Assembly (NCBI GenBank): GCA_031290455.1
Contig: JAITNP010000048.1
Coordinates: 1 to 32,261, forward strand
Reading direction: 5' to 3'
Length of the DNA stretch: 32,261 nt
Source of the DNA: Treponema sp.
Lineage (GTDB): Bacteria > Spirochaetota > Spirochaetia > Treponematales > Breznakiellaceae
Positions 13,398-21,678 of the stretch are shown in pieces. Numbering within the stretch: position 1 is the first letter of the stretch; every line of letters starts with the position of its first letter. Below the pieces are notes generated by a model, which did no database searches, was not told the origin of the DNA, and was given only the letters and a program-made list of their open reading frames with translations. A program made the translations under genes and the position numbers.

Positions 13398-14690
13398 GTG
13401 ATTATGCAAAGCAGCATAGAATTTTTAAGGAAAAACGGTCTCTGCCCCCCCTATACAAAACTCAATAAACTTGATAAAGTAAAATCTATGGATATGCCAG
13501 CCTCTTTATTTGATATTGATTCCTCCTCTGTTGCAGTTCCAAAACAGGCAAAAAATCGCTCTTTTGCGCCAACCCTTGACTTATTTGAAGCATTATATGA
13601 AAATAATGACTATCTTACTAAGCAAATTATTACTTACATAGGCAATAAACGTTCGCTTTTGCAGTTTATTACCAAGGGAATACAGAAGGTTCAAAAATAC
13701 TTGAACAAAAACAGGTTAAATATGTTTGATGTGTTTTCTGGATCAGGGATTGTTGCAAGGCATTTTAAGCAATATTCAAACCTTCTCCTTGTTAATGATT
13801 TGGAAAAATATGTAAAAATTACCAGTGAATGTTATTTGTCAAACAAAAGCGACTTGGACATGAATTTGTTAAAGTCTTTATATACCGATCTTTCTGAAAC
13901 AATTACAAAAAAACCGCTCGTCTCCGGTATTGTTACGGAATTATACGCTCCAAAAGATGATGAAAATGTACAGAAGGATGAACGGGTATTTTATACACGC
14001 AAAAACGCAATGTATATAGATACCATGCGCGGTTTGATTGACGCTATTCCTCAAAAATATCAAAAATACTTCCTTGCACCGTTACTTTCGGAAGCTTCGG
14101 TTCATTCCAATACATCTGGTGTGTTTAAGGGATTTTACAAAAACAGAGAGATCGGGATTGGTCAATTTGGCGGAATCAATCAGGATGCCCTATCGAGAAT
14201 AAAAGGCGATATTGCGCTACCATTTCCTATTTTCAGTAACTTTACTGGTGATTTTATCGTTTATAATGGAGATTCAAATGCTGTGATAAAAGAAGCGTCG
14301 GAAGTTGATTTAGCGTATTTAGACCCACCATATAATCAACACCCTTATGGTTCCAATTATTTTATGCTTAACCTGATTCTTGAAAACAAATATCCTGAAC
14401 AAATGAGCAAAATATCAGGCATTCCAGAAAATTGGAATCGCTCCGCATATAACAAGAAGCAATGTGCCTATAACGCGCTCAGTGATTTGGTTACAAATAT
14501 TAAGGCAAAATATGTTCTCATATCTTTTAATTCAGAAGGATTTATTTCACTTGACGAAATGAAAGGTATGTTGGCGAAAATTGGCAAAGTAGAGGTCTTG
14601 GAAACAACGTATAATACATTTCGCGGTTGCCGAAATTTGGCAAATCGTGACATTCATGTTAAAGAATATCTGTATTTGTTGGAGAAATAA
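13398..14690 (+). CDS. D12-class N6-adenine DNA methyltransferase
   Basis: YIGNKRSLLQFI, motif I MFDVFSGSGIVARHF, motif IV DLAYLDPPYNQHPYGSNYFMLNLI. AT-rich compared with neighbours. Confidence 0.92.
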   Translation: MIMQSSIEFLRKNGLCPPYTKLNKLDKVKSMDMPASLFDIDSSSVAVPKQAKNRSFAPTLDLFEALYENNDYLTKQIITYIGNKRSLLQFITKGIQKVQKYLNKNRLNMFDVFSGSGIVARHFKQYSNLLLVNDLEKYVKITSECYLSNKSDLDMNLLKSLYTDLSETITKKPLVSGIVTELYAPKDDENVQKDERVFYTRKNAMYIDTMRGLIDAIPQKYQKYFLAPLLSEASVHSNTSGVFKGFYKNREIGIGQFGGINQDALSRIKGDIALPFPIFSNFTGDFIVYNGDSNAVIKEASEVDLAYLDPPYNQHPYGSNYFMLNLILENKYPEQMSKISGIPENWNRSAYNKKQCAYNALSDLVTNIKAKYVLISFNSEGFISLDEMKGMLAKIGKVEVLETTYNTFRGCRNLANRDIHVKEYLYLLEK

Positions 14691-15204
14691 ATGGCGCACA
14701 AAGATGCATTGCGAAACCAATGGACAGGAACTATAATCAATTAGATTTGATTCTTCTTCGATGCGTCCTGGCGGTGGCGTTTTAAGCATTTTGTCAAAAA
14801 ACGAAAACAAAAAATACCCGATACTGATTACCGAAGTAAAAAATCAAGGTACAAATGATTTGAGAGCTAAAGAGGGGAAAACGAAACAGGCAAAAGGAAA
14901 TGCCATTGAGCGATTAGGAAAAAATGTTATCGGTTTTAGAACCGCGTTATTGCATGAATCAATTTTCCCGTTTGTTTGTTTTGGGGAGGGTTGCGATTTT
15001 GCTCCTGATTCATCAATTTTAGATAGAGTGATAACAATATCCATGTTTGGTGACTTGAATAAAATTAGCGTTCATAATGAAGGACCGAATGGCATATTTA
15101 ATCACGGCAGTTTCTATTTTAGGGAAATAAAATGGACTGTGGATGAAATGGCGAAAATTATGAAGGAATTTGCGGAAAAAAGTGTTTTGTATAAAAACCG
15201 TTAA
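14691..15204 (+). pseudogene. EcoRI-family type II restriction endonuclease relic (N-terminus deleted, catalytic Asp replaced)
   Basis: ATG at 14691 gives MAHKDALRNQWTGTIIN then stop. In another frame, SSMRPGGGVL...YPILITEVKNQGTNDL...KQAKGNAIERLGKNVIGFRTALLHESIFPFVCFGEGCDF aligns by eye with EcoRI SSIKPDGGIV...VVLVAEAKHQGKD...MAAGNAIERSHKNI...LSESHFPYVLFLEGSNF. Confidence 0.78.
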
Positions 15205-19050: not shown

Positions 19051-19100
19051 TCCGCTTCAATGTGGGATGGGTGCGGGGATCGGGGCCGATAATCAGCGGA

Positions 19101-19231
19101 CGTGAGGGGGCAGGAAAATCCCTGGGGCGCTCATGCTAGGGTTCTGGGACGAGATTGGATTGAGCTTCACGCTTTGGGGCCAGAACCCGTCGGTCACATG
19201 AGCGCCCCAGGGATTTTCCTGCCCCCCCACG
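19101..19231. repeat. 131-bp long inverted repeat / hairpin element
   Basis: 35-nt arms CGTGAGGGGGCAGGAAAATCCCTGGGGCGCTCATG (19101-19135) and CATGAGCGCCCCAGGGATTTTCCTGCCCCCCCACG (19197-19231) with one mismatch; inner 9-bp pair GGGTTCTGG (19139-19147) / CCAGAACCC (19180-19188). Confidence 0.95.
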
Positions 19232-19291
19232 GACGATGGTTCCGGCGTGGTCGCGCAATATCCCGAAAAATGATACAATACGGTACAGCAG

Positions 19292-19780
19292 TTGACCGAA
19301 CAGGAGGCCCTGCTGCAGCCCTTTGACGGGAAACGCAACAACTTTGAACTGCATATTTGGCCCGGCTCCCAAAAGAACGGGTACTATGACAACGAGGAGC
19401 TATTCATCAATCTCCGGGCCAATGAAGATTGCTATTTTGTGGTGTATCAGGTTGATATTGACAACAACATGCATCTACCCCAACTTCTGGGAGATCGGCA
19501 AAAATGTCCTCAAGGTGGGGGTTACCCGGACCATCCCGGAAGACACCAGTTTTGTGCTTCACCCCCTTACGGAGAAGAACGGATCTTCGTGTACGCTTCC
19601 CAGCGCCCCTTCACCATTCCTGAAGACCAGTACAGCCCCCAGTCCATTTCCCGGGAGCGTCTTGCCTCCCCCAGGCGCTCTGGCGGATTGAGAGCGGTTC
19701 CGGCGACGGTTCCAAAGCCTTGTCGGTAGTTCCCCGGGGCGCTACCGGACAATTCAGCTATACCATACTGCCGAAATAGA
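19292..19780 (+). pseudogene. DUF4384-like protein relic with two frameshifts
   Basis: Reading across frames: FELHIWPGSQKNGYYDNEELFINLRANEDCYFVVYQVDIDNNMHL / IYPNFWEIGKNVLKVGVTRTIPEDTSFVLHPL / YGEERIFVYASQRPFTIPEDQYSPQSISRE. Confidence 0.6.
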
Positions 19781-19874
19781 CGGACATTTTATACACCCTG
19801 CCGGAATTAAACCCCATGTGACCTCCGATCTAGTTTATGTGGGTTAAATTTGTATTTTTAGGCAATGCATCCCC

Positions 19875-19902
19875 TTGACATTGGCCAAGACATCAGTATA
19901 AT
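19875..19902 (+). promoter_or_regulatory. Consensus sigma70-type promoter TTGACA-N16-TATAAT
   Basis: TTGACA at 19875-19880 and TATAAT at 19897-19902; predicted TSS about 19909, where riboswitch P1 begins. Confidence 0.8.
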
Positions 19903-19908
19903 AAAATT

Positions 19909-20070
19909 TGTATACTTCAGAGGAAGTGAGGTGAAATGCCTCCGCTATCCCGTAACTGTAATCGGGTACGATTCTATCAGGGCAACCACTGGTTATAAAG
20001 AAAGTATTTTCTTTTTCCGGGAAGGTTGATGGAAAAGGTTGATCCGTAAGTCAGGAGACTTTGGTATACA
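19909..20070 (+). ncRNA. Cobalamin (B12) riboswitch
   Basis: GGAAGTGAGGTGAAATGCCTCCGCTATCCCGTAACTGTAATCGGG ... GCAACCACTGG ... CCGGGAAGGTTGATGG ... GATCCGTAAGTCAGGAGAC. Closing P1 stem TGTATAC (19909-19915) / GTATACA (20064-20070). Confidence 0.92.
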
Positions 20071-20182
20071 TAATCTTATTTGCCAGGCTTCGTGGATAGG
20101 GCCGGAGGTATCATTCGTTTCTTATAAACGGCTTTATCGAAGAATGCTTGCATGTAAGGTTTTTTATTTTTTTGTGAAAATA

Positions 20183-20245
20183 GAACGTCGTAACGAACAT
20201 GCTTTTAACGGTTTTCGCATGATTCGTTATGGCGTTCTTTATTGT
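20183..20245. terminator. Imperfect hairpin, likely bidirectional terminator between the riboswitch transcript and mtaB
   Basis: GAACGTCGTAACGAACATGC (20183-20202) pairs with GCATGATTCGTTATGGCGTTC (20217-20237), T-rich on both exits. A T-run GGTTTTTTATTTTTTT at about 20159-20173 precedes it. Confidence 0.6.
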
Positions 20246-20247
20246 CT

Positions 20248-21678
20248 TTATTCAAGCCGTTCCGCCAGCGCGTCAAAACGGGAATTTTCTTCCCCTTCCA
20301 CCGGGAGGCTGCGGAGCCTGCAGCGCACCATACTTCCCGGTGGAAGGGCTTGTTCATGGGGCAGGGTAATCAGCAGTTTTAGATAATTATCAGATACCCC
20401 GGTGGCCAAACCCGAAGTCCCCGGCCCCTTCACCTTCGATTCAATGATGGCTTCCACCGTTCTTCCCATCCACCGGTGGATATACCCCTGCCGTCCCTGC
20501 TGGCCAAGGACCAGGAGCCGCTCCACCCGGGCAACCGCCTCCCGTTCACTGACCGGTTCCTTGAAATGATATGCCTCGGTGCCGGGCCGGGGGGAATAGG
20601 GAAAGGCATGTATCCAGGCAAACCCAATGCTCCGGCATAATTCGTAGGTTTTTTCAAATTCTGCCTCGGTTTCCCCGGGAAACCCCGTGATAATATCACT
20701 CGCTAAGAAGGGGTCATCTTTGACAGAACGCAAACGACTTACTCCCTGCTCAATAGTATCAGGGGTATAAGGACGCCTCATTTTTTCAAGGATGCGGGAA
20801 CTGCCGGACTGCACGGAAAGGTGAAAATGGGGGCGTATCCGCGGATGAGCCAGGATGGTAATAAAATCCTCCCGCATCCCTTCCGGTTCAAGAGAGGAGA
20901 GCCGCAGCCCTATCCGTTCTGTTCTGTCCAGGAGATACCCCAGAAGCCCTGCAAGGTCCAACCCTGAGCGATACCGGCTAATATTGACCCCGGTTAGCAC
21001 CGCTTCTCCATAGCCCTTGGCTTCCAAGGCCTGCAGGGCGGACAAGACCTGTTCCGCCTCAAGGCTCACCCCCGGCCCCCGTGCCAGGCTGACCCGGCAG
21101 TAGGAACAGCGGTTATCGCATCCGTCCTGAATTTTTAAGAAAGCCCTGGAATGAAAAGAACAATCCGTCTGGTTAAACCGGAACCGTTCATGCTTATGGG
21201 GCGACCATTGGGCTAAGAGGTTCGGTAATACCAGCGATACCATTGCCGGATCCGCTGCCCTGGCATGGGTCTCCCCTCCCATCGCTTCAGAGAGCAATCG
21301 AGGCAGGTCCAGGAGGGCGCTTTTGTGATCCCCCGGAACCACGAAGAGCCGATCTTCATGACAGAAGAGGCCGCCGGCCTCCATTTCCAAAGCCCTCAGG
21401 CGCTCACCCTCTAACTGGGCATAGCAGCCGGTTACGATAATAACAGCCCGGGGATGGTCTCGCAACATTTTCCGGATAATCCTGCGGGCCTTCTGTTCAG
21501 CCTTGGAGGTTACTGTACAGGTGTTGACCACGAGGATATCCGGGACACCGTGCCGGTCAAGGTCCCCTGATTCCCAAGGAAGAATTTCAAAACCTTCACG
21601 CTTAAAGGCATCGGCAATGGATTCACTTTCAAGCTGATTTAACTTGCAGCCCAAAGTATAGGTGGAAAGAGCAAGCAT
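20248..21678 (-). CDS. mtaB: tRNA t6A37 methylthiotransferase MtaB (radical SAM)
   Basis: YTLGCKLNQLESESIADAF, VVNTCTVTSKAEQKARR, radical SAM KIQDGCDNRCSYCRV, C-terminal TRAM-like region. Confidence 0.92.
   Translation of the reverse strand: MLALSTYTLGCKLNQLESESIADAFKREGFEILPWESGDLDRHGVPDILVVNTCTVTSKAEQKARRIIRKMLRDHPRAVIIVTGCYAQLEGERLRALEMEAGGLFCHEDRLFVVPGDHKSALLDLPRLLSEAMGGETHARAADPAMVSLVLPNLLAQWSPHKHERFRFNQTDCSFHSRAFLKIQDGCDNRCSYCRVSLARGPGVSLEAEQVLSALQALEAKGYGEAVLTGVNISRYRSGLDLAGLLGYLLDRTERIGLRLSSLEPEGMREDFITILAHPRIRPHFHLSVQSGSSRILEKMRRPYTPDTIEQGVSRLRSVKDDPFLASDIITGFPGETEAEFEKTYELCRSIGFAWIHAFPYSPRPGTEAYHFKEPVSEREAVARVERLLVLGQQGRQGYIHRWMGRTVEAIIESKVKGPGTSGLATGVSDNYLKLLITLPHEQALPPGSMVRCRLRSLPVEGEENSRFDALAERLE

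Follow-up and report, generated by a model that had tools for sequence, protein, structure and literature searches.

The window, i.e., the whole 32,261-nt stretch of DNA that was analysed, was an entire contig of a 2.9-Mb MAG (G000), and it was compared with two other genomes of the genus (G001 and G002). All three were fragmented MAGs with 79–90% completeness, and the two sister genomes were close to each other. On the plus strand, a promoter scan located a sigma-70 type promoter (TTGACA-N16-TATAAT) at 19875–19902 with 12/12 consensus matches, in agreement with the perfect promoter described in the initial annotation of this DNA. A cobalamin riboswitch aptamer lay at 19896–20082 (+). The cmscan search, an Infernal/Rfam check that had been proposed earlier, matched the complete RF00174 model (1–189) with 73.7 bits (gathering threshold 31.5; E 1.4e-16); this was the sole Rfam match in the window and confirmed an intact riboswitch. 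The P1 stem (about 19909–20071) started about 6–7 nt 3' of the -10 box, which matched the earlier placement of the transcription start at P1. The convergent neighbour mtaB, outside the unit, was located at 20248–21678 (-) (TIGR01579, 386 bits vs. a cut-off of 357). Its stop at 20248 was 166 nt from the end of the aptamer, so the convergent 3' end reported downstream was also found.

The aptamer was followed by a P13-like hairpin (CCAGGCTTCGTGGATAGGGCCGG) and a Shine-Dalgarno-like GGAGG (20104–20108), together at 20083–20108 (+). P13 with its flanks (20072–20112) was 85% identical between the window and the sisters and 100% identical between the sisters. The GGAGG was kept in all three species, with an ATG at 8-nt spacing in the sister units L015 and L018; in the window, no start codon was present at proper spacing behind it. 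In the sisters, GGAGG-N8-ATG opened a frame of 28 or 34 aa that ran into the next hairpin, T2.

A long hairpin (20072–20161) with a U tract (20160–20174), designated T1, covered 20072–20174 (+) and ended in a 15-nt T-rich run (TTTTTTATTTTTTTT); it is a putative intrinsic terminator and a candidate expression platform. Its MFE in the window was -32.6 kcal/mol (z -4.0, 0/200 shuffles). In the predicted folds of the window, the 5' arm of T1 contained the P13/SD segment and used both arms of P13; T1 and P13 would therefore be mutually exclusive. The sisters had a similar fold, but its stability was not significant (z -0.7 and -1.6), and they did not conserve the 3' arm of T1. Because of this low stability in the sisters, T1 may be specific to the window species.

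T2 consisted of a 21-pair hairpin (20182–20238) with a T-rich tail (20182–20250, +) and is a putative effector hairpin and/or terminator. It was terminator-like on both strands, and its loop of about 14 nt held the conserved segment TTWACGGTTTTC. The z value of T2 was -6.9 in the window (0/200 shuffles) and -5.0 and -4.1 in the sisters. The T-rich terminator-like run and the long hairpin noted in the initial annotation were thus both real in the window; the reuse of the P13/SD segment by T1 and the standing of T2 as a separate conserved hairpin had been missed. Alignment of the three sequences showed three compensatory pairs (changed on both sides) in the T2 stem, with 94% of cells paired. None of six slid controls had compensatory pairs, and the shuffle control was modest (24/500), as three sequences were available.

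T2 was present in 3 of 202 genomes of the family, all of the same genus, each time solely at the riboswitch unit. A T2 model gave no significant match beyond the three units among about 40 riboswitch loci of the family. These two results show the gene-less riboswitch unit to be restricted to the genus, as far as the genomes examined go. In a pattern scan of GTDB species genomes, the matches were confined to the sister MAGs, Treponema sp. Pq454_bin73 and Po218_bin31, which we take to be termite-gut MAGs, and the same scan of viral contigs gave no matches. T2 was also considered as a dispersed repeat, and this was rejected: it was single-copy in the three genus genomes and was not found in the other 199 genomes of the family. 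When conserved antisense partners of the T2 loop (GAAAACCGTNAA) were sought, eight matches came up, including the units themselves, and none was orthologous across the three genomes.

Downstream of the window aptamer, no plus-strand ORF with a known domain was found; a 115-aa frame at 20039–20386 had no Pfam match. The earlier statement that no recognisable gene follows the riboswitch was therefore upheld. The closest relatives of the window riboswitch were L015 (G001:C75) and L018 (G002:C171), both beside recA and about 80% identical to it. The order of TTGACA promoter, aptamer, P13 segment and T2 was the same in both, and TTGACA and the -10 area were found again in each. Similarity between the window and the sisters began at TTGACA, ended at T2 and was confined to the unit. 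In G002, the next recognisable gene was recJ, in convergent orientation, and no co-directional gene was recognised; a 128-aa TTG frame before recJ started inside T2. In G001, no gene lay between the unit and the contig end. Among the other cobalamin riboswitches examined in the family, most had a co-directional ORF near the 3' end.

A B12 gene at the unit in close relatives, which the initial annotation had named as counter-evidence, was looked for, and both sisters were gene-less. Recent gene loss in the window genome was therefore rejected. The earlier suggestion that the regulated gene had been lost fails as a recent, species-specific event and stands as a possible loss in the genus ancestor. 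The GGAGG in three species, with a normally spaced ATG behind it in the sisters, suggests an origin of the unit from an ordinary riboswitch–gene pair.

The fourfold sites of mtaB, SpoIIE, hydrogenase, TPR, recA and recJ were used as the neutral yardstick, an imperfect measure; gaps were left out, and Fisher tests were applied. Between the window and G001/G002, these sites were 56–67% identical across the genes, with pooled values of 0.607 (528/870) and 0.633. Against this level, window–sister identity was 0.86 for the aptamer (129/150; p 2e-10 and 2e-8), 0.85 for the P13/SD segment (35/41; p 7e-4 and 2e-3) and 0.75 for T2 (51/68; p 0.012 and 0.033). When T2 was compared with the fourfold sites of the most conserved gene, p was 0.06–0.10 (window vs. 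sisters). Identity was 0.45–0.48, at or below neutral, in the interval from P13 to T2 in which a gene would be expected to begin. The whole 28-nt promoter was only about 60% identical to the sisters, which is neutral, except for the hexamers. Between the two sisters, T2 (69/69; p 1e-3) and P13 (41/41) were unchanged, and the middle stretch was at the neutral level. The window aptamer scored 73.7 and that of L018 73.4, so there was no drop in the CM score, in contrast to a true relic of the window genome (C153), which reached 30.4 bits. By this yardstick, the aptamer and P13 evolve more slowly than neutral, and T2 likewise, more weakly. Since the gene-less state is common to the three species, the constraint was exerted, at least largely, on a gene-less riboswitch.

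In the window, a MITE-like repeat with 45-bp inverted arms (19054–19275) lay beside the inserted block, and a truncated DUF4384 gene fragment (19280–19804, +; Pfam E 6.5e-8; 91% identical to G001:C169) lay between the repeat and the riboswitch unit. The repeat matched dozens of sites in G000 but was not found in either sister genome. In G000, recA and recJ were on other contigs, neither with the unit. The homology upstream of recA ended just before the promoter position, and the breakpoint entered a repeat (CTTCAATTCGGAATATGCG...), the same as at 19054–19275 of the window. The recA copy was gone, and the MITE-like repeat occurred both at the breakpoint and next to the copy in the window; the unit therefore probably relocated as a whole. 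The positions of the two repeat copies suggest a repeat-mediated rearrangement.

Judged by the three genomes, the unit is a real, conserved orphan riboswitch; its gene-less layout recurs in three species under constraint, which lends weight to the orphan, B12-controlled non-coding RNA proposed in the initial annotation. We give slightly better than an even chance to the reading that the unit is an autonomous, protein-less transcription unit for a B12-responsive, gene-less and probably trans-acting RNA. The unit of about 340 nt would consist of a constitutive-looking promoter, the aptamer, the P13-like regulatory hairpin, T1, and T2 as the end. We infer that it is transcribed and controlled by B12, with T1 as the putative switch point. 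B12 binding would most likely set the transcription length, giving a short RNA to T1 (about 265 nt) or a long RNA to T2 (about 340 nt). The T2-bearing RNA would then act in trans, by protein sequestration or RNA pairing. In known cobalamin riboswitches, the ligand stabilises P13 via a loop–loop contact. If cobalamin does so here, B12 would favour read-through into T2, since T1 and P13 would exclude each other; this direction is a guess of low confidence.

The strongest alternative, although unlikely, is an ordinary riboswitch–gene–terminator unit whose gene disappeared in the ancestor of the genus, leaving promoter, aptamer, SD and terminator functionless and decaying slowly. The sisters keep GGAGG and ATG at normal spacing with only the 28- or 34-aa frame behind them, relic riboswitches exist in the window genome (C153), the window lies in a mosaic of repeat and pseudogene sequence, and T2 may be no more than a bidirectional terminator that was retained. 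Against slow decay, the aptamer and the P13 segment change far more slowly than fourfold sites (p 2e-10 and 7e-4) while the gene-less state is shared. The changes in T2 are compensatory, the CM score is undiminished and the promoter is perfect in the window. The unit also sits at different places (mtaB vs. recA) and yet is intact, which favours a functional unit over a relic. On this evidence a functional non-coding RNA is favoured, at about an even chance, with a relic considered unlikely.

It is improbable that the riboswitch controls a very small protein, encoded by the 28- or 34-aa frame of the sisters and lost or changed in the window. Such a protein would fit the SD and ATG of L015 and L018, which are 8 nt apart, and the frame survives one indel with the same stop. 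On the other hand, every codon difference between the two sister frames was non-synonymous (by inspection), the window has no start codon there, and the identity of the stretch is neutral or lower. The small peptide behind GGAGG was rejected, as it is not conserved.

The initial annotation had also proposed antisense transcription into mtaB, and control of mtaB by transcription interference or read-through is now considered very improbable. Its basis was the convergent orientation, with 166 nt from aptamer to mtaB stop, and cobalamin riboswitches acting antisense at a 3' end are known (AspocR) or predicted (PMC9943018). Yet this layout was absent in both sisters: their mtaB directly adjoined the SpoIIE-type gene that also neighbours it in the window, no riboswitch separated the two, and the equivalent unit was beside recA. 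The 1.2 kb at 19052–20254 between the SpoIIE-type gene and mtaB was found in the window genome only, and T1 and T2 intervene before mtaB is reached. The convergent neighbour of the unit differed, being mtaB in the window and recJ in G002. Antisense to mtaB was rejected on synteny. Because the sister mtaB genes have no riboswitch near the 3' end and the unit lies by recA there, comparative synteny indicates that mtaB is an accidental neighbour in the window genome, and on the same grounds the suggested link between B12 and tRNA modification was not supported. The synteny comparison called for earlier therefore supported the gene-less unit in relatives and not its adjacency to mtaB.

Equally improbable is that the unit is a bystander of an unseen gene or an assembly artefact, with the regulated gene dropped or misjoined: the three MAGs are fragmented (79–90% complete) and the G001 unit is near a contig end, but the sequence continues well past the unit in the window and L018, and in all three assemblies T2 follows the P13 segment at a short distance that holds no gene.

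EutX (Enterococcus) and Rli55 (Listeria) are sponge RNAs for EutV controlled by an AdoCbl riboswitch (PMC5821096, PMC8079631). Such RNAs act in trans, so that their genomic position is free, and according to a review they could sit anywhere in the genome (PMC5821096). The window unit resembles them in having its own promoter, a cobalamin aptamer, a terminator-like hairpin, a further hairpin and no protein gene. It differs in that T2 is a single 21-pair hairpin with a loop of about 14 nt and not the dual hexaloop hairpins of ANTAR sites, in that the guessed direction of the B12 response is reversed (read-through favoured), and in that it comes from a spirochaete and not from Firmicutes. No ANTAR-type dual hairpin was present in the predicted folds of the unit, and a PF03861 (ANTAR) search gave no match in the three genus genomes, nor in the control genomes, so the control was uninformative. 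In layout the unit is built like EutX/Rli55; membership is not claimed.

AspocR (Listeria) is an antisense RNA to pocR under a B12 riboswitch (PMC8079631, PMC9943018). Here too a cobalamin riboswitch heads a candidate non-coding transcript convergent with a gene; unlike AspocR, the unit has no conserved convergent partner, and T1/T2 come before mtaB. The Bc1 c-di-GMP riboswitch has a dual terminator, T1/T2, 28 bp apart (PMC11218506). The window unit likewise has two terminator-like hairpins in quick succession behind the aptamer; however, the ligand is different, and Bc1 precedes genes whereas the window unit has none. The btu-type riboswitches L014 and L017 of the same genus shared the aptamer type and the P13 motif with the unit (about 75–80% identical) but were without T2; L014 precedes B12 uptake genes, and L017 ends before a gene. 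The co-directional gene of a canonical cis-acting layout was not recognised in the window or L018.

To our knowledge, experiments have so far described only a few non-coding RNAs under riboswitch control, and those for cobalamin (EutX/Rli55 and AspocR) are from Firmicutes. The literature searched held nothing on orphan cobalamin riboswitches of spirochaetes. A more specific reading, which we put forward tentatively from comparative data, is a B12-sensing, trans-acting spirochaete RNA with T2 as a new conserved effector hairpin unrelated to ANTAR sites, evolved independently when loss of a gene left an mRNA leader to persist as an RNA of its own. Conservation of a gene-less cobalamin riboswitch, together with its movement as a block and a retained second hairpin, would mean that mRNA leaders can turn into free-standing regulators in another phylum, and the unit offers a concrete case with defined parts. 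Divergence relative to fourfold sites, together with sister species, is a simple discriminator between a live orphan riboswitch and a relic.

Other riboswitches were found in these genomes. In the sisters, another riboswitch without T2 lay beyond the neighbouring hydrogenase block; that of G001 preceded a lipoprotein-like gene, a TonB receptor and BtuF/C/D-like genes. In the window, the left side of the hydrogenase block was occupied by a D12-class adenine methyltransferase and an EcoRI-like endonuclease (13398–15204); the equivalent position in G001 held the riboswitch-controlled B12 uptake genes. In G000, L012 (C153:13020–13185, -) was a true relic, with 30.4 bits (below gathering) and the 5' half missing; its remaining part was 86% identical to L016. 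A further cobalamin riboswitch of G000, L013 (C144:260–486, -; 51.8 bits), faced a contig end that finished in a long G run, and its regulated gene was absent from the contig. On another G000 contig (C227), a caspase-domain and FGE-sulfatase fusion protein (L093, 1131–2975, -) adjoined recJ.
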